This document shows, one piece after another, positions 1 to 62,689 of a stretch of DNA of 64,000 bases. The position numbers and the translations under genes were made by a program. Source of the stretch: Xestospongia muta (Eukaryota; Porifera; Demospongiae; Haplosclerida; Petrosiidae); contig OY848930.1 in the NCBI GenBank assembly GCA_963693285.1, positions 620,001-684,000 on the forward strand, given 5' to 3'. The notes beneath the pieces were generated by a model that was not told the DNA's origin, did no database searches, and saw only the letters and a program-made list of their open reading frames with translations. Positions within the stretch are counted from its first letter, which is position 1, and the number at the start of each line of letters is the position of its first letter.

Positions 1-1271
1 TTGTTAATTCTAAGCTTCAATTTACAATTCCCATTTGAGTTTATAGACCGAACTCAATGTTTTGTCAAGTAAAATCTTGTGAGAGATACACTCTTTACAT
101 GACAATCTATTGTTCAGACTCTTTGCTGACACTTTAGTTAATTGTATACAATAAGCAGAGACCAGCTGAAGTGACAAATAAAGATTGAATGTTAGTATGA
201 GTGGTTAATGCTTTTTATACACACAGTGGCTTCCAAATATATATTTTAGTGGTTTTGCCTTATTGATAGTAGGTACACTAGACTGTTAATGATTGGTGTT
301 CACTAGTCTAGAGTTTGTCAATGGCTACAAATGATTGTTTAGTTTGTAGTGTGTAAAGAGGCTTTCTGTCATCTGTTAATAGTGATTGCTTTTTCCTATT
401 AGTTTTGATAAACTAGGTAGTAAACACTTGAAGGAAATATAAGCTACATATTTTGTGAAATTGTTAGCATTTTTAGATTATTAGATCATCAAGAAAAAAT
501 GATAGCTACCATTGGTAAGCTCTAGACTAGTGAACATCAGTACTTACCACAGTGACCCAGGATAGCTACCGTTAGTAAGCTTTAGACTAGTAAACATCAG
601 TACTTACCACAGTGACCTAGGATAGTTACAGTTAGTAAGCTCTAGACTAGTGAACATCAGTACTTACCACAGTGACCTAGGATAGCTACCATTAGTAAGC
701 TCTAGACTAGTAAACATCAGTACTTACCACAGTGACCTAGGATAGCTACATTAGTAAGCTCTAGACTAGTGAACATCACTAACAATCACATTCATTATAA
801 TATATTTTAGATACCTCTGGTCCAGTTGACTGTGGCTTTGCAATTGACTTATGTCATTAACACATGAAATGCTCGTTGTGGCTGGTTGGGATCCAAGCTC
901 ACATTGCTAATTGATTTGTGTGACCCTTTTCCCAATCTTCAACTTTTCAGGTACTTTCAAGTTATAAATACACTGATCTAATTGAACAATCATTTTATTT
1001 TCATTATTTTTTTAAAATTATGTGCTAGATTAATTTACTAGTAACCATCATTGTTCATAATTATAATAAAAAAACATTGAGGTTTTGCAAGGAATATTAT
1101 TTTAACGAGGTAATTAATTATTATGACGTATGCGCGTAAATAAAAGAATTCGATCGTTGTCCACGCATAAATAAGAGGGGAACGTTTTCGAGAGATTAGA
1201 CACAGTTTTACAAACTTTGCAAAGAGTTTTGCAAACCAACCCGATTATAGCATTGTGAAATTTGTAGAAGT
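1..1271. other. Upstream spacer of the FOXL2-like gene
   Basis: AT-rich DNA with no coding exon that I can support. It holds a 60-bp minisatellite (about 490-780) and, near the gene, a TATA-like ATAAATAAG at about 1166-1174 with a CG-containing stretch (TATGCGCGTAAA, about 1127-1138). These could be the core promoter of the forkhead gene, but this is inference from position only. Confidence 0.5.
490..782 (-). repeat. 60-bp minisatellite, about five copies
   Basis: Successive 60-base units repeat TACTTACCACAGTGACC, GGATAGCTACC and AGTAAGCTCTAGACTAG with few changes. This is the reverse complement of the arrays at 5.6, 11.8, 40.3 and 47.7 kb and has the same orientation as the array at 42.8-43.6 kb. 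No coding capacity. Confidence 0.9.
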
Positions 1272-2327
1272 ATGCCAAGCGTTTATCCAATGAGTGGAGA
1301 GCAGAGCTACGCAACCAGTGTCTGCGAGAAGGAGTTTCGAGAGGCACTAGAGAAATCGATGCAAATGAGCAAGAACGGCAGCAAGCAGCCCGAGCCTGTG
1401 GCGACCGTGCCTGCTAGAGCAATCAAACTCAATCCTTCCTACACAGAAGATGGAGACGAAAAGATGGCAAACGTCAAGCCACCTTACTCGTACGTTGCTC
1501 TCATTTCTATGGCAATCCAGAGCTGTCCAGAGAAGAGGCTCACGTTAAATGGTATTTACGACTACATCACTAAAAACTTTCCTTACTATCGCAACAGAGA
1601 AAATCAAGGCTGGCGAAACTCGATTCGTCACAATCTCTCTTTGCATGAATGTTTCATGAAACTCCCTGCAAAAGGAGGCAAGAACGGCAAAAGCCATTAC
1701 TGGGTGCTGGATCCGAACCACGAGGTCATGTTTGAGGAAGGCAACTACCGAAGACGTCGCAGACGCCCTGTAAAGAAAGTCACTTTCCCCCCAACTCACT
1801 ACCATAGTCATTACAGCAGATCTCCATATTATCCTCTGTATCATGGAATGCCAGATTATACCTCCCGGGCAATGAATCCAGCTGCTGCTGTAGGCTGGGA
1901 CACTGCAGGTATGCACAGTATGTTCCAATCACCCTATACAGGATTACCATCCATTAATGTCAATGGTAATAACAATGCCGGGCCCTTACAGTCACCACTA
2001 GCTAGTGCCTTGGGAACCAGTTCCCTAAGCCATCAAACTGGTGCCACAGCATTCCAACCAGGTGGCTATTCACCATTGCTTTATTCTCCAAGAAACATGA
2101 CAGATTCTATTGGAAGGCCGACAGCCTCTGTCCAGTCCTCTATGCCATTAATAACCCCTTATCCACCACCAGCTCTCCCTGCGTTTCCATCCAGCTATAC
2201 TGGCAATCCTCATCCTCAGCCCCTTTCTCTCCCCACTGATACCAGTAAGACGTATCAGCCTTCAGCTCCCGTCACTCAGAGCAGTAGTCATCTTCCATCC
2301 TCACCCGATATTTGGAACCCGCTTTAA
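1272..2327 (+). CDS. Forkhead-box transcription factor, FOXL2-like
   Basis: Single-exon gene of 351 residues. The forkhead (winged-helix) DNA-binding domain covers about residues 69-163. It begins [14 protein letters not shown], contains the recognition helix [13 protein letters not shown] at about 116-128, and ends GNYRRRRRR. The [11 protein letters not shown] tail followed by a proline-rich stretch is typical of FOXL2, which is why I prefer that subfamily over other Fox classes. The C-terminal half is rich in Ser, Pro, Tyr and Gly and looks disordered, as in many Fox activation or repression regions. The protein should act in the nucleus. The ATG at 1272 is preceded by a TATA-like element about 100 bp upstream. 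Lack of introns contrasts with every neighbour but is common for FOXL2. Subfamily assignment rests on domain-edge features and would need a tree. Confidence 0.9.
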
Positions 2328-3461: not shown

Positions 3462-4776
3462 TTATTTCTTGTTTGCCCATTTCATATCGTCACTACGTGG
3501 TTTCATCCCAGTAACTCGCTCGATAATTCTTTCAAGACTTGTCCAGAATCCTATTTTTTCTAATGGGTAGTTTAGCCAACCCGTAGTTATGCAGAAGTAA
3601 GTTTCGTGAGGTGCAACGTGGTGAACACGGTGGTGTGCTTTTGGTAAGATGATGTGTAGTTTCTGTAGTACTTGGACCCATTTTGGTAAACCGTAATATG
3701 TATGAGACCACTTGTGAAATTGATTTGTAAATGTTACAAACAAAACCAGAGATGCGGAGAAACAATGAAACGAATACCAGTTTTTTATTTGTTGAGCAGT
3801 TTGGGAAAAAAGAAGATAGAGAAGGAACAAAAGCCCGGGAAGTGTGGTTAGACAGTTGTCTCCATTGGTCTCAATAAAGTCGTGTCGAGTGATGGCGGTG
3901 GGGTCAATGTGATGTTCACGAAATGGCCGAATAAAAGCCTAATTAAATAAAAAGTTGTGTACAATTTTAAAAATGGCTTTCATGTTAGGTACCTTTCCAA
4001 TAATGGGTATCTCCACTGATCCCCAGCTATCAGCTGCCCAATGAACAAATCCAGAGAGAAAGTCTGCCAATAGCATGCCAAACACTATGGAAACAGAGCC
4101 ATATTAAGCAAGTCTATTTATAGCTGAGTTACTATTAATAGTAACTATACCATAACGGTCTGACAGGTAATACAAACTCGCCTTGTGTATTATGCAATGT
4201 GGTTTAGTTATACATTCAGCACTAAGAGGTATTAAATTTAAAGTGGTCAAGTTTTATAATCGCTATAATTATTTGCTTTATATAAATAAAATATCATTGG
4301 TAACAAAGCTATATGTACTAAACACAGTGTTATATAAACCGAGTTATCTTTGTTGCATTACAACGATGACATATAGTAAAGAGCATTTTAAAGTACACTA
4401 TGTTCCCAAATCAATTCATTGAACAATGTTACTATATTTAGCTCGTGTGTACCTATATTTAGTAACATGGATGGTAGAAACGACATCTCCCAGTAGTAGC
4501 AAAGATTAATATAGACCAGAATATTAAGTATTAATGAAGCTATCACACTGGCTTTCTCCATTCGACGTTTACCTATAGGGGACAAAATGTTCACAATAGT
4601 TTTAAAAGACTGTTTCTATAAACAAAACAACAGCACAAACAATAAACTTCACACACAATTAATTCCTAGAGCATACCTAGAGTGTATCCGGCGGCCAATT
4701 CTTTTGCTCCTGCATGGTTTCTTCCAGCACGTTTGTGCTGTTCGTCAAAGAGAGTCGCCTTCTTCTTGCACTCCAT
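3462..4776 (-). CDS. PEDS1: Plasmanylethanolamine desaturase (TMEM189/Kua family)
   Basis: Four-exon gene read right to left: 4677-4776, 4453-4572, 3993-4084 and 3462-3938. All junctions are GT-AG, total 262 residues, close to the human protein (about 270). The family introduces the vinyl-ether bond of plasmalogens in the endoplasmic reticulum membrane. Visible hallmarks are RNHAGAKELA near the N-terminus, a hydrophobic helix pair, FVHWAADSWGSV, the long conserved block FIRPFREHHIDPTAITRHDF, then HKWSH, HHRVHH and HETYFCITTGWLNYPLE. The many conserved histidines fit a di-iron active site. The start ATG at 4774-4776 opens the conserved N-terminal segment. It is divergent from MRRF, with only 88 bp between the two start codons, so a shared promoter is likely. 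Confidence 0.95.
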
Positions 4777-35374: not shown

Positions 35375-37657
35375 CTAAACTTTAGGACTCTTCACAAAAT
35401 TTATCAAATCTAGTGCAGCTGGAAAAAGTTTCCGTAGCCATTCTGACATGCGCTCCATTGAAATTTTACTAGGATATTGCAAAGCAGCTGTTTTAGTTTC
35501 TGAAACAAGAGCTTTGATAGTCTCTACAAGTTGATTACTTGAGGAAACGACCCCAGCCTTGATATCATTATGTAATAACTTCTGATAAAGAGCATCAGCA
35601 ATATATACCAACTTGTAAGCGGCGACAACAGCTAGTTTACTTTTTGTAACAAATTCCTTTGGAGTTTCTGAACTCTTTATGCTCTCTAGAAAAACTTCAA
35701 TGGCTTCTTTTAAGCCAGGTCTAAGCAATTCCATCTGTTGTGAATACCTTATTAACAGTTCACGGTCTTCTTGCCTTAGTGGCTGAGGTGGACTTCCAGA
35801 TCTATCAATCATACCGTTTGTATGACCATCGATCCCATTTCCATAAGGGGAACCACTTCGTTGAGCACGTTCAGGTGAACAGCTACGACGTGGACTGCTC
35901 GTCCCATCAGAATTATTAGAATGATTACTACTAGAGCTCTGACGTGAGATTTGATTTCGTGATTTAATTGTTCCAGATGAATTTCCAACAGAGAGGTGAT
36001 AATTATCAGTTCTTAAAGGTATTGGAGGTGGAACGATATGAGACGACCCATCGATATCGTCATAGTCACCACCTTCTGTATTTGTCGGTGGATTCTTTCC
36101 TTTCTTCCAGGAAGGTTTTCGAAGAGTAGCAAAAGGCAAAGGGGGTAAGTCATCATTAGGGTTACGCTTACGATTAGTACCAATATTCAATTCTTGTGTT
36201 TGAGAGGTAGACGGAGGATCATCGGCAAAATCATAGTCAGCGTCAGATAAATCTACTGAGTTGATCATTGTTGGTCTTGTTTGAGGGAGTTCAGGAAGAG
36301 GGCGGTTTTTCACTTCGGATTTTGTAAGAACCGGTAAAGTTTCTTCGACTTTTAAGGTTGCAGATTTAAAGAGGATTGCCTTGTTGGCTTGGACAAGGAT
36401 GACAAATGCCTGAACAGCCTGAGGGATGGTACGAGCTCCTTCTAAGAGAGATTTGACAGTAGCAGTGATTGGCACATCCTTTTCATCAGCTTCAACAAGG
36501 ATGTCAATTTTTGATAGTACCTCTTGTCTCTTGTTTACCAAAATAGTGTTAGCTGCCAAACATTTTCGCTTAAAGTTGGCATCTTTTGTGTTGGAATTCT
36601 CCAAAGCTATTGTCAAACCTTTTCCAAACTCTACCAAACTCAAGAGACATCGATCAAAGTCTTTTGCTGCTGTGATAGTTCTTTGTAAGGTTTCTCTTCT
36701 TCTAATCTTGTTATCAGAGCCCCAATATGCACTGTTACCATAAACACACTGCCAAAGTCCTTCAAATTCTTTATCAAGTTCACTACGATGTTTTTTAAGG
36801 AAGTCTTCAGCTTCATTTTCATACATGTTAGATAAATCCATACCTTCTCCTGAGGAACGTCTGCTGTTGCGGCCTTCGTGTGGTTGAGAAGGATGAAACA
36901 TATCAGAAGGAGGGACATCATAGATTGCTGAAGGACTTGTTGGGGGGACATCGTATATTTGACTTGAGCCGAGAGAAGCTGCTGATACTCTGTTACTTAA
37001 GGAAGACTTGTTACTAGGGGGTCTGTCGTAAATGTCATAAGGGTCTGCAGTTACCTCAACAGGAGGAAGATCATAGTCTCGATTTGTTGGGTCATCAGTC
37101 TCATCGCGTGGAGGACGGTCGTACATATCATCTTCATCTCGGGAGACAGGAGTACCCCGTGGTATGTCGTAGTCAGCATATTTTGTTTCTAACTCATGAC
37201 GTGGTATACCACCAGTCTGAACAAAATTTGCTGGAGCCACTTGGGCCGATTTTGGTTGTGATTTAGGAACGGCATAATCGGCTTTCTCGTCATCTATCTT
37301 CTCCTTCTCTTTCTCTTTCTGATGCGTACCATATGGGTCTGTCTTAGGAGCATGGGGATGAAAAATCTCGAGATAGTTAGCTGGTACCATCCCTACGCTC
37401 TTTCCAAGACGACAGAGCCACCAGTCGACTTGGCCATTGAAATCTTTCTGTAGAACTTGAAGAATCTCGTCTTTGCGAAATGTTAGTTCGTCTGGGGTAT
37501 CAGCTTGGTTGGGATATCTCGCTCTAGCGAAAAGAGGCGGCTGTGAAAATCCCTGAGAGAAAGACATAGAAAGCAGTAAATCTTATATTTGTAAGTGAAT
37601 GAAATATATATTCGGGGTGGAGGTAATAATACTTACAGCGCGAATAACATCAGTCAT
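35375..37657 (-). CDS. CAS-family adaptor (p130Cas/BCAR1, NEDD9 homologue)
   Basis: Two exons, 37637-37657 (MTDVIRA) and 35375-37552, 732 residues. An N-terminal SH3 domain (about residues 13-71: FARARYPNQADTPDELTFRK, DWWLCRLGKSVGMVPANYLE) is followed by a substrate region of repeated YDxP motifs (YDIPRGTP, YDRPP, YDLPP, IYDVPP twice). Next comes a helical serine-rich bundle and a C-terminal FAT-like domain (KEFVTKSKLAVVAAYKLVYIADAL, ETKTAALQYPS). These are the defining parts of Cas scaffolds, which link integrin/FAK/Src signalling to Crk and cell migration at focal adhesions. The Src-binding YDYVHL of vertebrates seems replaced by a DADYDFADDPP context. The upstream ATG in the large frame (37567) falls in the intron, so the short first exon supplies the true N-terminus. 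Divergent from TMEM170. Confidence 0.95.
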
Positions 37658-53450: not shown

Positions 53451-56400
53451 TTACTTAGCTTTTGAAGCAAGGAATTCACGAATTTTTTTAGCTTTCGGCA
53501 AGTTTTTGATGTTAGATTCTTCAAAAACAGCAACCACTGTCTCCCAGGTGACAAGATTTTGATCAGTAGTAATCATCCATTCATGAATTACATTGGTGAG
53601 TTTGATAAAATCACCACCCTGCTGATTATTTCTTAAACCATTCAAAAAGTTAAAGCTTAATCCCAGAATTACACCAAGTTCATACCACTGACTACTGATA
53701 TCAGCTAATTGGTTACGTAGTTCATGTTCATCAGGAACACTCTTTAAGATTTCAGAGATACCTAGATATATTCAGATAGCATATTATTCATAATATCAAG
53801 TTTATTTCAATGATAAAAAGTTCTTAATTTTACTTTTGCTAGAAAAGTTCATGTAGTGGATGCAAGAAGGTGTCATAGTGACTGAAAAAAACATATTATC
53901 TTGTGACTAACTTAAAGTCATTATCTATTGCTTGAAGCAATTGGTGCAAACAATCAATATGATCAGAGCTAAGTATTTGTCGTATTCCTGTGGTACCATG
54001 TACACTTGTAGCTATATATGTGTAATAGAGTACTACTAGTTACTCACCTTGAGTGTTTGGTTGTTTTCCTGAGTCAACAAAGTTTTTTTCCACTTCATCT
54101 ATTGTAATAATCACATGTAAAGATAACTCTATCAATATCTTTACCTGAGTTTTTAAATAATATATCAGTCTTAATTTGACATGTGGTATCATTAACTTGA
54201 ATAGTAACTTTGTTAGAGCTAGAACAATTATCAAATTTCAAAATTATCTCAAAATTTTGATTGGCTTCGTCATTTGCTGAAGCCTCAGTTCCTATTTCCA
54301 TTGGACCACCTTGAATGGATGGACATTTCAGAGATAATTGAAAACGCTTCATGACACCAAAATTAAGGTCAACATTCACTACATTGGGATATAGTGTAGA
54401 TGAATTGAAGTTTATATAAGTTACTGACCTTGAGAAGAACTAAGTGTTTGTTTTGTTGTAAGGTCATTGAGTATATTGGTAGTTCCTGTGTGAAAAACTG
54501 TTAATATTTCTACAACAATGGTTAAAAGTTACCTTCAGCTTGAAGCCATTTATCTGATGTGTTTAGTTCACTAAATGCTAGTAATGATGGCTTTGATTCT
54601 TTCTCTTTTAATTCCTCTACTTTTTCTCTTTTTTGACCTCCATATTTACTTAGCAGTTCACTAATACTTTCCTGTTTAATATGATTAGCATCATCTAATG
54701 GTGTCCTCTTGTCAGCAATAAGATTGGGATTGGCATTTCTCTCCAAGAGTGTCTCTACTATTGTGAAGGATTTACCTCCTCTTACTGCAAAGAACAAAGG
54801 GGTGAATCTCCAATTACTTTCTTGTTTATTAACATCAGCTCCAGCTTGTATGAGAGCATCCACTATATCAACATGTCCACATGATGAAGCTACCATGAGT
54901 GGAGTAAGACCAAGTACCAGTGGAGTATCTGGACTATCTAATGTCTTCATTACAACTGCACCTAAATCACCTTTAACACATGAGTCTAGTAGTTCTATCT
55001 GGTCATTAGTGAGGTATGGAAGTTTGTTTGAGAGGAAGGTAATGAGAGTAGGGTGACCACCATAACATGATAGTACTACTGCTTTTTCAATCTCATCAGT
55101 AGTGGGTTCAGCTTTATCTAAGAGCATATTAACAAGGTCTCTGTTACCACTATAAGCTGCTAATGAAAATGCTGTTGATCCATCATATGCTAACAAGTGA
55201 GGATCTGCTTGTGATTGCAATAAACATTGCACAATTTCAAGATGTCCATTCTGACTCGCTACCATTAAGGCATTGTAATCATCTTTACATAGAATACTAA
55301 CATCTGCATCCCGTTGGAGAAGTAGTTTAACAGCCTGAGTATGACCATTAAAACTAGCTAGGATTAGGGCAGTCAATCCATTTTCATTCTGAGTATTAAT
55401 GTCAGCATGTTCTTTGATTAATAGTTCAACAACCTGGTAATGACCATTTTGACTAGCTATCATTAGGGCAGTCCATCCATTTTCATTCTGAATATTAATG
55501 TCTGCGTGTTTTTTGAGTAGTTGTTCAATGATCAGGATATGACCACTTTGACTAGCTAGCATTAAAGCTGTCATTCCATTTTTGGTGACACTATTAACAT
55601 CTGCTTTCTCTTTTAGAAGTATTTCAACAACAGTAGCATGACAGTTTGCAGTAGCTGACATTAAAGCAGTTACTCCATTGTTGTTTTGAATATTAATAGA
55701 TGCTTTTTCCTTAACCAGTAGTTCAACAACCTGGGTATAACCATTTTGACTAGCCAGCATTAAAGCAGTAAATCCATCTTCTTCCTGAACACTAGTATTG
55801 ACATCTGCATGCTCTTTGAGTAGTAATTCAACAATGTGGGTTTGACCATTTAGACTAGCCAGCATTAAAGCAGTCATTCCATTTTTGGTGACACTATTAG
55901 CATCTGCCTTCTCTTTTAGAAGTATTTCAACAACATTAGCATGACCTTTTGCACTAGCTAACATTAAAGCAGTTACTCCATTGTTGTTTTGAATATTAAT
56001 AGATGCTTTTTCCTTAAACAGTAGTTCAACGACCTGGGTATGACCACTTTGACTAGCCAGCATTAAAGCTGTTATTCCATTTTTGGTGACACTATTAACA
56101 TCTGCCTTATCTTTTAGTAGTAGTTCAACAACAGTAGCATAGCCTTTTGCACTAGCTAACATTAAAGCAGTTACTCCATTGTTGTTTTGAATATTAATAG
56201 ATGCTTTTTCCTTAACCAGTAGTTCAACGACCTGGGTATGACCACTTTGACTAGCCAGCATTAAAGCTGTTATTCCATTTTTGGTGACACTATTAACATC
56301 TGCCTTATCTTTTAAAAGTATTTCAACAACAGTAGCATGACAGTTTGCAGTAGCTAACATTAAAGCAGTTACTCCATTGTTGTTTTGAATATTAATAGAT

Positions 56401-59400
56401 GCTTTTTCCTTAACCAGTAGTTCAACAACCTGGGTATAACCATTTTGACTAGCCAGCATTAAAGCAGTAAATCCATCTTCTTCCTGAACACTAGTACTGA
56501 CATCTGCATGCTCTTTGAGTAGTAATTCAACAATGTGGGTTTGACCATTTAGACTAGCCAGCATTAAAGCAGTCATTCCATTTTTGGTGACACTATTAAC
56601 ATCTGCCTTCTCTTTTAGAAGTATTTCAACAACAGTAGCATGACAGTTTGCAGTAGCTAACATTAAAGCAGTTACTCCATTGTTGTTTTGAATATTAATA
56701 GATGCTTTTTCCTTAAACAGTAGTTCAACGACCTGGGTATGACCACTTTGACTAGCCAGCATAAAAGCTGTTATTCCATTTTTGGTGACACTATTAACAT
56801 CTGCCTTCTCTTTTAGAAGTATTTCAACAATATTAGCATGGCCTTTTATACTAGCTAACATTAAAGCAGTTACTCCATTGTTGTTTTGAATATTAATAGA
56901 TGCCTTTTCCCTAACCAGTAGTTCAACGACCTGGGTATGACCATTTTGACTAGCCAGCATTAAGGCTGTCATTCCATTTTTGGCAACAATTTTAACATTT
57001 GCCTTCTCTTTTAGAAGTATTTCAACAATATTAGCATGACCTTTTACACTAGCTGACATTAAAGCAGTTACTCCTTTGCTGTTTTGAATATTAATAGATG
57101 CTTTTTCCTTAACCAGTAGTTCAACGACCTGGGTATGACCATTTTGACTAGCCAGCATTAAAGCAATAAATCCATCTTCTTCCTGAATACTGACATCTGC
57201 ATGCTCTTTGAGTAGTAATTCAACAATGTGGGTTTGACCATTTAGACTAGCCAGCATTAAAGCAGTCATTCCATTTTTGGTGACACTATTAACATCTGCC
57301 TTCTCTTTTAGAAGTATTTCAACAACAGTAGCATGACAGTTTGCAGTAGCTAACATTAAAGCAGTTACTCCATTGTTGTTTTGAATATTAATAGATGCTT
57401 TTTCCTTAAACAGTAGTTCAACGACCTGGGTATGACCACTTTGACTAGCCAGCATAAAAGCTGTTATTCCATTTTTGGTGACATTATTAACATCTGCTTT
57501 CTCTTTTAGAAGTATTTCAACAATATTAGCATGGCCTTTTACACTAGCTAACATTAAAGCAGTTACTCCATTGTTGTTTTGAATATTAATAGATGCCTTT
57601 TCCCTAACCAGTAGTTCAACAACCTGGGTATGACCATTTTGACTAGCCAGCATTAAAGCAGTCATTCCATTTTTGGCAACACTTTTAACATCTGCCTTCT
57701 CTTTTAGAAGTATTTCAACAACATCAGCATGACCTTTTGCACTAGCTAACATTAAAGCAGTTACTCCTTTGCTGTTTTGAATATTAATAGATGCTTTTTC
57801 CTTAACCAGTAGTTCAACGACCTGGGTATGACCATTTTGACTAGCCAGCATTAAAGCAATAAATCCATCTTCTTCCTGAATACTGACATCTGCATGCTCT
57901 TTGAGTAGTAATTCAACAATGTGGGTTTGACCATTTAGACTAGCCAGCATTAAAGCAGTCATTCCATTTTTGGTGACACTATTAACATCTGCCTTCTCTT
58001 TTAGAAGTATTTCAACAACAGTAGCATGACAGTTTGCAGTAGCTAACATTAAAGCAGTTACTCCATTGTTGTTTTGAATATTAATAGATGCTTTTTCCTT
58101 AACCAGTAGTTCAACGACCTGGGTATGACCATTTTGACTAGCCAGCATTAAAGCTGTCATTCTATTTTTGGCAACACTATTAGCATCTGCCTTCTCTTTT
58201 AGAAGTATTTCAACAATATTAGCATGACCTTTTACACTAGCTGACATTAAAGCAGTTACTCCATTGTTGTTTTGAATATTAATAGATGCTTTTTCCCTAA
58301 CCATTAGTTCAACGACCTGGGTATGACCACTTTGACTAGCCAGCATTAAAGCAGTAAATCCATCTTCTTCCTGAATACTGACATCTGCATGCTCTTTGAG
58401 TAGTAATTCAACAATGTGGGTTTGACCATTTAGACTAGCCAGCATTAAAGCAGTCATTCCATTTTTGTTTACACTGTTAACATCTGCCTTCTCCTTTAGA
58501 AGTATTTTAACAATGTTAGCATGACAGTTTGCACTATTAATGTCTGCATTATCTTTTAATACTAATTTCATGATATTGGTATGACTGATTTCTCCCTGAA
58601 TATTACTGTCAAGATTTTTGAGTAGTTGTTTAGCAACTTGGTTTATTAGACCATTTAAACAAGCTAGCATTAGAGCAGTCGTTCCATCATTGCTGATAAT
58701 GTTAACATCAGCATTTTCTTTTAGTAGTAGTTCAACAACATCAACATGGCCTTTTGCACTAGCTAGCATTAAAGCAGTTACTCCATTGTTGTTTTGAATA
58801 TTAATAGATGCTTTTTTCTTGACCAGTAGTTCAACTACCTGGGTATGACCACTTTGACTAGCCAGCATTAAAGCAGTGAATCCATCTTCTTCCTGAATAC
58901 TGACATCTGCATGCTCTTTGAGTAGTAATTCAACAATGTGGGTTTGACCATTTAGACTAGCCAGCATTAAAGCAGTCATTCCATTTTTGTTTACACTGTT
59001 AACATCTGCCTTCTCCTTTAGAAGTATTTTAACAATGTTAGCATGACAGTTTGCACTATTAATGTCTGCATGATCTTTTAATAGTAATTTCATGATATGG
59101 GTATGACTGATTTCTCCCTGAATATTACTGTCAAGATTTTTGAGTAGTTGTTCAGCAACTTGGTTTATTAGACCATTTAAACAAGCTAGCATTAGAGCAG
59201 TCATTCCATCATTGCTGATAATGCTAACATCAGCATTTTCTTTTAGTAGTAGTTCAACAACATCAGCATGGCCTTTTGCACTAGCTAACATTAAAGCAGT
59301 TACTCCATTGTTGTTTTGAATATTAATAGCCGCTTTTTTCTTGACCAGTAGTTCAACGACCTGGGTATGACCACTTTGACTAGCCAGCATTAAAGCAGTG

Positions 59401-62400
59401 AATCCATCTTCTTCCTGAATACTGACATCTGCATGCTCTTTGAGTAGTAATTCAACAATGTGGGTTTGACCTTTTAGACTAGCCAGCATTAAAGCTGTCA
59501 TTCTATTTTTGGCAACACTATTAACAATTGCTTTCTCTTTTAGAAGTATTTCAACAACATTAGCATGACAGTTTGCAGTAGCTGACATTAAAGCAGTTAC
59601 TCCATTGTTGTTTTGAATATTAATAGATGCTTTTTCCTTAACCAGTAGTTCAACGACCTGGGTATGACCACTTTGACTAGCCAGCATTAAAGCAGTAAAT
59701 CCATCTTCTTCCTGAATACTGACATCTGCATGCTCTTTGAGTAGTAATTCAACAATGTGGGTTTGACCATTTAGACTAGCCAGCATTAAAGCAGTCATTC
59801 CTTTTTTGTTTACACTGTTAACATCTGCCTTCTCCTTTAGAAGTATTTTAACAACGTTAGCATGACAGTTTGCACTATTAATGTCTGCATGATCTTTTAA
59901 TAGTAATTTCATGATATGGGTATGACTGATTTCTCCCTGAATATTACTGTCAAGATTTTTGAGTAGTTGTTCAGCAACTTGGCTTATTAGACCATTTAAA
60001 CAAGCTAGCATTAGAGCAGTCATTCCATCATTGCTGATAATGTTAACATCAGCATTTTCTTTTAGTAGTAGTTCAACAACATCAGCATGGCCTTTTGCAC
60101 TAGCTAACATTAAAGCAGTTACTCCATTGCTGTTTTGAATATTAATAGCCGCTTTTTTCTTGACCAGTAGTTCAACGACCTGGGTATGACCACTTTGACT
60201 AGCCAGCATTAAAGCAGTGAATCCATCTTCTTCCTGAATACTGACATCTGCATGCTCTTTGAGTAGTAATTCAACAATGTGGGTTTGACCTTTTAGACTA
60301 GCCAGCATTAAAGCTGTCATTCCATTCTTGTCGACACTATTAACATCTGCCTTCTCTTTTAGAAGTATTTCAACAACAGTAGCATGAGAGTTTACACTAG
60401 CTAACATTAAAGCAGTTACTCCATTGTTGTTTTGAATATTAATAAATGCTTTTTCCTTAACCATTAGTTCATTGACCTGGCTATGACCATTTTGGCTAGC
60501 CAACATTAATGCAGTACATCCATCATTGCTTTGGTAGTTAATATCAACCTTCTGTTGTAGTAATACTTGAACAGTATCATAATGGCCATGAAAGCTTGCA
60601 ATCATTAATGCATTTGAGCCATTTGATTTCTGTAAATTTGGATCAGCACCATGCTGGATGAGAGTATTGACTATTGCAAGATGGTTATGTTCACTTGCTC
60701 TCATAAGTGCTGTCCAGCCTTCATTATCTTGAATGTTAACATTAGCTCTAGCTGATACTAGTGTTTGTACAACTTGTTCATGTCCACCTTTACTAGCTAG
60801 CATAAGTGATGTTCTGCCTTCTTCATTGCAATGATCTATAGTAGCAGTTCCTATTAATCCCAGAAGAAATTGGACTCCATTATTGTTTCCTGCTGATGAA
60901 GTTTGTTGTAAAAAGGTTTGTAAAAGTTGAAAACACTGCATTAATTCACAAATATCTTCATTATCTTCTTCTCTTACTTTATCAGCAATACTCTGGTCAT
61001 TAATGAAGACATTAGGTTGAGCACCAGCTTTAAGTAGTTGTTCTATAACTTGAAGTGACTTGTGTCCTGTTATAGCATATACAAATGGACTGTACCCATC
61101 ATTGTCTGCACTCTTGACATTAGCTCCTGCTTGTATGTCCACTGTAGATTTATTACATCAACGATAGAAACAGCAAATAAATTAAAATGACTTTTCACTG
61201 GTAAGTCCAATGAATTTAATTAGCTTTACAACAATAATAGTTGGGAATGTTATAGTGTTCCTATAGCTTGACTGTAGATTAGCTATTTACTTTTCCTAAG
61301 TGTAGGTCAAATTGTTTAATGTCATTCTTTGGCTGGTTAAGCATGCTGTGTGACATCTCCCATATAATCAGTCATTTATTAGTTTGGTTAATTAATATAT
61401 ATTATTGTTGACTTTTCTACTAACCACTAGTTGCTATATGCTCTCTGATAATCATCACACTATGAACATTATAGTATAAGAGTAAATTCCCTCATAGATT
61501 AGAGTATATGATGTTTACATGTAATATGTGGTCCGTATGTTTATAGACATAATATAGTAATAATATATTGAGCTTTATAATATCATTGTTATATCTATAA
61601 GGGAGTGTACATTTGTCACAGCTTGCTTTACTCACAATAATGATTTCACACATAACAACAGCTATGACAAGAAATCTATTGGAACAGTGCTATACTTTAA
61701 TTATTTTGCTGATTAAAACATTGTTAACAATCACAATAATACATATTTGTGGCACTTTATCCCAAAAATATGAACTACCATAATTATTTTGTATTACTGA
61801 CCTTGTTGTTTAATATCCTGTTCATCACATGTAAGATCTAGTGAGATATCACATTGCTTTTTGACTTCTTCCATCCAGTCTTGACATAACTTTTGAGCAG
61901 CTAATTTAGTAGGACCACCTTCACTGGATAGACATTGTAAGAAAAGTTGACAATGTTCTTGTAACTTTGAAATGTCTCCTTTGAGAATTTGCATTGCATA
62001 TTGAAATTGATCAATCATGTTGTGAACAGTTGGAGAATCTTGGACTGATTTAGTTATTAGCTCATGTTGGTACATCCTATTAGCAACTCGTTGGAGACAT
62101 GGTTGTAAGTGGCCACTTAAATGATCAAAATGGTTTGTCAGTATCCTCTTTAATATTTTATGAACTTCATCATTTTTTGACACACTGGCACCTGTAATAT
62201 CATTAGAAAATGTAGAGTTATCACAGGAAGGTTTTAAAGAAATTCACAAGGACTTTCCAACAAGCTTAATTATACAAGTAACCAGTTTATTATCAGTTGG
62301 TTGTATTCATTATAATAAATAAAAATGAAAAAACCCTAATTATTTGATTTAACCAATAATGGTTACATATAGGTCATATGTAATTATCTGTATAACCTTC

Positions 62401-62689
62401 AATATTAACAAGTAAATTAAAACATCATTCCATCAGTTATATGTTTTAATGTTTACTGACCTGTTTTAGGTCCAGGGTTGAGTTCAATATCACCTGATAA
62501 AATGAGGAGAAGTAAGAGAAACAAAACTAGAGAGAATATCAAAGTACCACCACCCTCATCTCCTGACATCAATAGTGACTTTATCCATCCAGGGGTATCA
62601 GTGGTAGAAGGAGTCTTTTTAGTAGTATATGGTATCTGATGACAATACCATAACCCAATACAAGCTCTCCATTGAGAGACATCAATCAT
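53451..62689 (-). CDS. Giant ankyrin-repeat protein with 2A-like leader and C-terminal DEATH domain
   Basis: Coding exons right to left: 62461-62689, 61802-62191, 54533-61141, 54429-54485, 54145-54378, 54048-54098, probably one or two small exons at about 53830-53990, and 53451-53761; roughly 2,650 residues. Parts in order: a 74-residue leader with hydrophobic LIFSLVLFLLLLLILS and the 2A-like GDIELNPGP; a helical domain (DEVHKILKRI...) that may be a death-fold module; about 58 ankyrin repeats (TALMLASQ.GH...VVELL) in one 6.6-kb exon; a linker; and a C-terminal DEATH domain (WYELGVILGL, LTNVIHEWM, TWETVVAVF). The start ATG follows in-frame stops in the upstream exon. The layout suggests an intracellular innate-immune sensor or adaptor, but no NACHT is present and function is inference. 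Phase conflicts leave the joints at 53.8-54.0 kb unresolved. Confidence 0.85.
54620..61141 (-). repeat. Coding ankyrin array with 99-bp units and higher-order repeats
   Basis: 33-residue units alternate in sets: an EEDGF unit, an NNNGV unit and a KNGM unit, making a super-repeat of about 99 residues (297 bp). Units of one type are nearly identical in DNA, including silent sites, in the central part. The ends (near 54.6-55.3 kb and 60.5-61.1 kb) are diverged. Confidence 0.93.
62468..62494 (-). other. 2A-like ribosome-skipping motif (GDIELNPGP)
   Basis: Residues 66-74 of the leader match the 2A consensus D(V/I)ExNPGP. Known 2A elements prevent formation of the Gly-Pro bond, so the leader would be released and the main protein would start with Pro. 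The motif is at the end of its exon, just before the donor site, and is preceded by a hydrophobic run, as in sea urchin NLR 2A leaders. Confidence 0.88.

Follow-up and report, generated by a model that had tools for sequence, protein, structure and literature searches.

To our knowledge, ribosome skipping at 2A (StopGo) peptides has been regarded as almost confined to viruses. The 2As of APE-type non-LTR retrotransposons were reportedly described by Odon in 2013. The StopGo core (D/G/C/N)(V/I)ExNPGP and an LLLLSG-like motif class are defined in the available text of PMC12846837, where an example of motif 6 is recorded as active in rabbit reticulocyte lysate, and where Rao 2025 (Cell Reports) is described as having searched viral and cellular proteomes for 2As. 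In animals, the leader of the sea urchin protein SpNLR2A (Roulston 2016, PMC4981915, portion available) was shown to recode and, in mammalian and plant cells, to serve also as a signal sequence; the words sponge, Amphimedon and ankyrin are absent from Roulston 2016 (PMC4981915). The sponge NLR repertoire, as the accessible part of PMC12909245 presents it for D. avara, contains large NACHT/Death families, some with transmembrane domains, and the term 2A-like is absent from PMC12909245.

Here we describe a gene of the sponge Xestospongia muta that lies in a stretch of 64,000 nucleotides (the window; contig OY848930.1, positions 620,001 to 684,000). Its first exon encodes a hydrophobic leader ending in a complete StopGo core. 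Judged from the sequence, this exon is likely a conserved StopGo module on a receptor-like superfamily, which would give rise to a membrane leader peptide and a protein starting with proline.

Structure of the window gene

The exon borders of the gene were set by splice consensus and reading frame, from the genomic sequence alone. The features are as follows.

62461..62689, minus strand: exon 1, the leader, 76 codons plus one base, with its ATG at 62689
62495..62542, minus strand: hydrophobic run LIFSLVLFLLLLLILS, stopping right before GD (sequence reading and Kyte-Doolittle)
62468..62491, minus strand: StopGo core DIELNPGP, predicted to break after Gly (residue 73) and before the last Pro (residue 74)
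62192..62460, minus strand: intron 1, gt...ag, phase 1 (splice consensus)
61802..62191, minus strand: exon 2, a weakly CARD-like helical domain (low-confidence model; below the Pfam CARD cut-off at E 0.008)
54533..61141, minus strand: exon 3, ankyrin-repeat array, 2,203 codons (Pfam Ank_2)
54429..54485, minus strand: exon 4, short and optional, the frame surviving its omission (splice consensus and frame)
54048..54098, minus strand: exon 5, short and optional, the frame surviving its omission (splice consensus and frame)
53451..53761, minus strand: exon 6, C-terminal Death-like domain and stop codon (frame and profile-profile match)

Exon 1 runs from a conserved N-block (MIDxxQWRxxIGLWYC) through a loose linker and the hydrophobic run to the StopGo octapeptide and KTG. 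In the window gene the N-block is MIDVSQWRACIGLWYC, the run and the 2A join as LIFSLVLFLLLLLILS-GDIELNPGP, and the run is followed by GDIELNPGP-KT; the whole leader of 76 aa reads MIDVSQWRACIGLWYCHQIPYTTKKTPSTTDTPGWIKSLLMSGDEGGGTLIFSLVLFLLLLLILSGDIELNPGPKT, after which a G spans the splice. The exon 1 donor is AAAACAG/gtcagt and the acceptor, at 62191, is ttacag/GTGCC, in phase 1. All five introns of the six-exon model are phase 1, and the model forms a single open frame with 2,548 predicted residues; omission of one or both short exons leaves the frame intact and gives 2,512-2,531 aa.

The first-pass annotation had read the exon as a full match to the 2A consensus behind a hydrophobic leader, spliced to the rest of a 2,600-residue ankyrin-DEATH protein. 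The core octapeptide is indeed complete and in frame, in the L-rich context LLILSG, a type of context active in vitro elsewhere (motif class 6), and the hydrophobic N-terminal leader that precedes it is present. The splice into a long ankyrin protein also stands, with an open frame and phase 1, its length being 2,548 residues and not 2,600. The ankyrin array is well matched (Pfam Ank_2 E 1e-36, first 453 residues scanned), and the Death part is weak, with no Pfam hit and a profile match of 92.8.

That profile match concerns exon 6, in which Pfam found no match of its own. Two of nine aligned members, exon 6 and eight relatives, reach Pfam Death, at E 0.026 or worse, and the profile built from the nine matches that of the leader-adjacent Death exons with an hhalign probability of 92.8 (E 4e-7). 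The Death exons behind other leaders themselves reach Pfam Death at E 0.0015, below its cut-off. The exon 6 domain is here called Death-like. At another locus, L076, a different domain behind the leader passes the Pfam Death cut-off (E 6e-8). AlphaFold predictions from single window sequences had mean pLDDT values of 57 and 61, too weak for a reading of the fold. A PDB sequence search returned weak matches, namely the CRADD Death domain at E 0.18 and two more at E 0.36 and 0.5; a match to an engineered repeat protein (7e-6 over 24 residues) was judged to be chance. The C-terminal Death-like family is very large: two members used as queries gave 1,508 and 1,820 candidates at first look, of which 150 were scored for each, and many lie far from any leader found.

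No NACHT domain was found in the first 453 and last 200 residues of the protein, and a NACHT search of the genome had no match in the window. Non-LTR retrotransposon sequence (endonuclease, reverse transcriptase, PHD) is absent downstream of the window 2A, where the exons are weakly CARD-like and ankyrin, and no Rfam family in the window reached its gathering threshold. On the 3' side of the gene (52980-52630, minus strand), a broken exon-2-like sequence with in-frame stops was recognised by eye, and is perhaps the remainder of a neighbouring copy. Elsewhere in the window, open frames have the look of usual animal genes and resemble by eye a forkhead factor (1251-2327, plus strand), a fatty-acid-hydroxylase-like protein (3462-3938, minus strand) and an SH3 adaptor akin to p130Cas (35375-37582, minus strand).

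Copies of the leader in the genome

A leader search of the sponge's own assembly (158 Mb, 28 contigs) gave at least 150 scored matches, the window leader included (the best 150 of 185 candidates), clustered mainly on contigs C4, C12, C14, C3, C1 and C6. Leader length in this genome is 64-82 aa. From the counts of full-length leaders and the substitution estimates given below, duplicate loci (L036, L047, L048 and L057) were left out together with leaders that fall short of the full HMM (start >2 or end <72), and so were rows under 20 bits in the strict and extended octapeptide counts; stop-bearing leaders were excluded from dN/dS. There are 125 full-length stop-free leaders among the 150. The extended octapeptide (D/G/C/N)(V/I)ExNPGP is present in 121 of these 125, and the strict form GD[VI]ExNPGP in 119. 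It is preceded by an L-rich run and [ASC]G in 118 of the 121 (in 97 by LLILSG exactly, the hexapeptide of the window gene). The Kyte-Doolittle maximum over 17 aa is at least 1.81 in all 125.

The first-pass annotation had proposed looking for DxExNPGP near the N-terminus of other predicted proteins of the genome. The strict codon pattern D[VI]ExNPGP does recur, at 147 sites (53 forward, 94 reverse), and the reversed pattern, used as a control, at none; the motif is thus more frequent than chance. Over the part of the genome covered by the first 100 strict sites, 78 of 93 leader matches carry such a site. Nine of the 15 leader matches without one are partial or stop-bearing. L064 has an intact octapeptide written with another codon, and hence no strict codon site; L063 reads NVELNPGP. 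Four open leaders without the octapeptide (L065-L068, C1 at 14.53-14.58 Mb) read NPAT or NPIN, and behind all four the Death exon contains stops; their sibling L034 has kept its 2A though its Death exon has one stop. Conversely, 22 of the first 100 strict sites fall outside the 150 scored leaders, and those that were read comprise divergent leaders (L039, L070, L071, L074) and retroelement-like frames.

Eleven full-length leaders bear stops. The strict form is found in two of them and the extended octapeptide in seven, five of which belong to one tandem group on C14; retention in seven of 11 weakens the argument from broken copies. In nine duplicate leaders at C14:5.10-5.22 Mb (L027, L086, L088, L090, L091, L101, L106, L108, L110) the 2A is altered and a stop immediately precedes it, mostly as LLLLIL*GGIELNPGP. 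For eight of the nine, another leader follows about 2.0-2.2 kb downstream, and some of the nine have an additional stop. These leaders have the look of decayed copies, and those with no additional stop would still encode a bare leader peptide.

Genes behind the leader

The leader exon is one module found at the head of numerous genes in this genome, of Death, NACHT and ankyrin type. Architectures were established from exon searches, about 60 loci of about 3 kb and some ten stretches of 2.7-9.5 kb; proximity to NACHT and Death exons was scored with the 150 leaders and 12 further 2A sites. A search for the NACHT family (PF05729) gave 98 matches. For 48 of these, a leader or 2A site lies upstream on the same strand at a distance of up to 8 kb, compared with three that have one on the wrong strand. 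The contrast drawn in the first-pass annotation, an ankyrin gene and not a NACHT one, therefore does not hold for the leader exon family, which also heads NACHT genes (48 of 98), as does a related leader in Amphimedon queenslandica, described below. One such NACHT gene lies about 30 kb outside the window (L061), and consists of leader-2A, a domain with no Pfam hit, NACHT and a further C-terminal part.

A Death-exon query gave 116 matches, 76 with a leader within 1.5 kb; the gap between the two measures 39-61 bases in 60 of the 76. The first 68 matches are all 66% identical or more, and in 62 of them a leader lies within 1.5 kb. Counted from the leaders, a Death exon follows within 1.5 kb in 70 of 150 matches, usually about 50 bases away, unlike the window gene, in whose intron 1 region no Death exon was found. 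Taking the best matches of each search, 83 of the 150 leaders are followed by NACHT at up to 8 kb or by a Death exon at up to 1.5 kb. With a third exon class added (56 rows picked by eye from 300 listed, one of them with a wrong start coordinate), 42 leaders had no downstream class in the automatic test. The window gene is among them because no Death exon stands beside its leader and its Death-like domain is about 9 kb away. Two of the longer stretches contain close relatives of the window gene: L181 has the leader, Death and an open exon of 1,280 codons that is ankyrin-type by eye, and L182 has the leader, Death, an exon-2-like domain and a 2,303-codon exon with ankyrin repeats at its end.

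The leader exon ends in splice phase 1 in the window gene, and the copies inspected have the same donor. Four loci, L080, L118, L119 and L146 (C6:8.21 and 8.22 Mb, C4:8.33 and 8.34 Mb), have an uninterrupted frame of 215-233 codons that runs from the leader through the short intron into the Death exon, so that spliced and unspliced RNA might both be in frame.

Relatives in Amphimedon queenslandica and other proteins

The best 120 of 625 unnamed proteins found with the leader profile comprise 114 with the canonical motif, one variant and five open leader proteins with no NPGP (P0061, P0063, P0065, P0075, P0087). For 17 of the 120 the best match is 100% identical to a leader of this genome, and some of the 120 come from the same species as the window. 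The 859-aa protein P0002 shares the leader at 44% identity (MIDVSQWR...LLLLSGDIELNPGP), followed by a stretch that is Death-like by eye and then by ankyrin repeats. No close copy of its long leader was present among the matches listed for the window genome, the best, at 49%, covering the Death-like part.

A search with the first 260 residues of P0002 gave 154 proteins, and 68 of the 120 listed, picked by name, are from Amphimedon queenslandica. Forty-five of the 68 are named NACHT domain-containing; other names are Death, CARD or nucleoside phosphorylase domain-containing. The octapeptide is present in 66 of the 68, a figure that is not a rate because these proteins were found by similarity in the leader region. 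It stands at residue 120-155 in 46 of the 66, the leader being longer there, and follows an L-rich hexapeptide in 52 of the 68 by the rule used for the sponge's own genome. We take the UniRef entries of these A. queenslandica proteins to be Aqu2 models; P0177 and P0238 are also NCBI predicted proteins. RNA-seq was strongly favoured in building the Aqu2 gene models, according to the available text of PMC4432959.

In 12 of the 68 models (P0185, P0186, P0202, P0203, P0205, P0206, P0211, P0212, P0213, P0215, P0223, P0233) the octapeptide is joined to sequence that is not L-rich, for example PPTG or GKQTNR. These models read as if the hydrophobic exon had been skipped, which would be expected to switch ribosome skipping off. 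P0183, also from A. queenslandica, has two tandem leader-2A-like units before a nucleoside phosphorylase domain, the first reading GVVELNPGP.

Proposed working of the leader

We propose, with a probability of roughly 0.8, that the leader is a conserved hydrophobic peptide with a StopGo end, that the window exon is one copy of this module, and that it likely frees the ankyrin protein as a second chain. The ribosome would translate the hydrophobic run and SGDIELNPG while the run is still inside the exit tunnel. Asp, Glu and Asn would hold the nascent chain, as in the F2A structure (PMC12846837, as far as its available text describes it). The ester would then be hydrolysed, releasing the leader as a 73-residue peptide ending in NPG, and synthesis would restart at Pro to give a receptor-like ankyrin chain beginning with proline.

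Because the hydrophobic run ends eight residues before the predicted break, it should still lie in the tunnel at that moment, and only chains that do not skip would reach the secretory machinery. Such chains would expose the run later and could enter the secretory route, comparable to the sea urchin leader in the accessible portion of PMC4981915. Skipping would in this way set how much of the receptor-like protein is cytosolic and how much is membrane-linked. The run starts only after about 50 residues, unlike in the 26-aa sea urchin leaders, and so need not act as a signal sequence. Skipping, the tunnel position of the run and the pool ratio in the window gene are inferred.

Selection on the leader and competing readings

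Strong purifying selection acts on the leader 2A, whereas the central part of the leader drifts, and it is dN/dS that carries the case for a functional StopGo. Among 41 representatives less than 80% identical, the linker has a dN/dS of 1.09, compared with 0.22 in the N-block, 0.23 in the hydrophobic run and 0.07 in the 2A core; for the six diagnostic residues D, E, N, P, G and P the value is 0.01. With all 126 distinct sequences the core is at 0.12 and the six residues at 0.03. A set of 37 representatives, from which four found only via the motif search had been removed, gives 0.19, 1.06, 0.21 and 0.08 for N-block, linker, run and core. Variation in the octapeptide is confined to the StopGo-free positions, the second (V/I) and the fourth (x = L, V, S or I). 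Across 53 independent pairs of close sequences, pN/pS is 0.40 for the N-block, 0.74 for the linker (0.58-0.99), 0.36 for the run and 0.20 for the core (bootstrap 0.07-0.42); core and linker remain at the bottom and the top of the order, with less contrast than in the 41 representatives. Positive selection on the linker was considered and rejected, since the close-pair value of 0.74 indicates a relaxed segment.

The constraint on the N-block and the run bears on how far the leader matters beyond the break. Skipping may occur and yet yield only a cytosolic protein starting with proline, or lower output, the peptide being degraded with no dual targeting. Consistent with this, the leader does not have the short 26-aa form of SpNLR2A. 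Against it, dN/dS values of 0.22 and 0.23 suggest a use for the released leader or for the uncleaved form, and we consider this outcome possible but unlikely.

The values for the six diagnostic residues bear instead on skipping itself. An ordinary N-terminal membrane anchor or signal, in which NPGP is structural (for example a turn after the anchor) and sponge NLR-like proteins are truly membrane-bound, would account for the hydrophobic 17-residue stretch in 125 of 125 leaders, and for the transmembrane domains reported in sponge NLR architectures (PMC12909245, citing Yuen 2014 for A. queenslandica, in the text available). An anchor alone needs none of D, E, N, P, G and P, yet these are held at dN/dS 0.01-0.03 in the StopGo pattern, and the octapeptide is kept in the listed A. 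queenslandica proteins (66 of 68), whose leader is longer. We regard the anchor as improbable.

That the exon is the remnant of a non-LTR retrotransposon, its 2A captured with the exon and carried along without function, is very improbable: seven other 2A sites do stand in retroelement-like frames by eye, in a similar L-rich context (L031, L037, L041, L042, L046, L072, L073), but no N-block matched in those seven, the sequence downstream is PHD-finger-, proline-rich- or endonuclease-like and not these host domains, and the strong purifying selection on the leader 2A (dN/dS) disfavours functionless debris. Such a reading would call for neutral decay of the octapeptide where the downstream exons are intact, and the data gathered here speak against that. 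An ancient retroelement origin of the leader is possible.

A small, mostly decayed family joins a related leader and 2A, with no intron, to a cysteine/histidine-rich frame in five places:

L069-L071, L174-L176 (C4:3.35 and 3.57 Mb, C9:3.77 and 3.79 Mb, C3:9.45 Mb): mostly decayed leader-cysteine/histidine family

This family may be a mobile element that acquired the leader.

Implications

A literature search combining sponge, Porifera or Amphimedon with 2A and the leader letters found no report of this leader among the results listed; Rao 2025 may list sponge sequences. What is new here is limited, since Rao 2025 could contain sponge entries, to the leader module, its selection and its spread over architectures. 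Together, 121 open octapeptide leaders in one genome, the purifying selection on precisely their StopGo residues and the relatives on dozens of A. queenslandica proteins would make StopGo routine in the receptor biology of an early-branching animal lineage. They would also offer a new explanation for membrane-looking sponge NLRs, namely that translation itself may detach the membrane segment. The existence of paralogues with broken octapeptides makes the StopGo idea directly testable.

A bolder proposal, which we hold to be rather doubtful, is that StopGo is a standard control of the sponge cell. A single leader exon, shuffled to the front of receptor-like genes of several kinds, some hundred of them or more, would split the product of each mRNA into a cytosolic receptor and a conserved membrane peptide, in a ratio governed by skipping efficiency and, in A. 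queenslandica, also by skipping of the hydrophobic exon. The leader would have a role of its own, and the device would be as old as the animal NLR family and shared with sea urchins.

Comparison with known systems

The leaders share with RNA-virus StopGo classes 2 and 6 the core octapeptide and, ahead of its Asp, an L-rich hexapeptide that closes with (A/S/C)G. Viral StopGo sits inside a polyprotein, whereas here it is found near the N-terminus of intron-bearing host genes. Position p15 is Leu in 113 of the 121 octapeptide leaders; StopGo classes 2, 4 and 6 favour Ser (both classes and preferences as given in the available text of PMC12846837). The 2A of APE-type non-LTR retrotransposons is similar in that the retroelement-like frames of this genome have an L-rich run and GD[VI]ExNPGP. 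Unlike the leaders, these frames have no N-block, and PHD-finger-like or endonuclease-like sequence lies downstream in place of the host domains. Compared with the sponge NLR repertoire, as represented in the accessible part of PMC12909245, the window gene is non-NACHT and its leader is one common to NACHT genes.

The kinship in logic with sea urchin NLR leaders, to which the first-pass annotation had pointed, is supported by the comparison with SpNLR2A (Roulston 2016, PMC4981915, in the portion available). Both have an N-terminal 2A leader with a hydrophobic stretch before the 2A. The SpNLR2A leaders measure 26 aa, against 64-82 aa here with an additional conserved N-block, and sit on NLR genes, whereas the window gene has no NACHT. 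Unlike the SpNLR2A leader, the sponge leader is a separate exon, copies of which head Death, NACHT and ankyrin genes.
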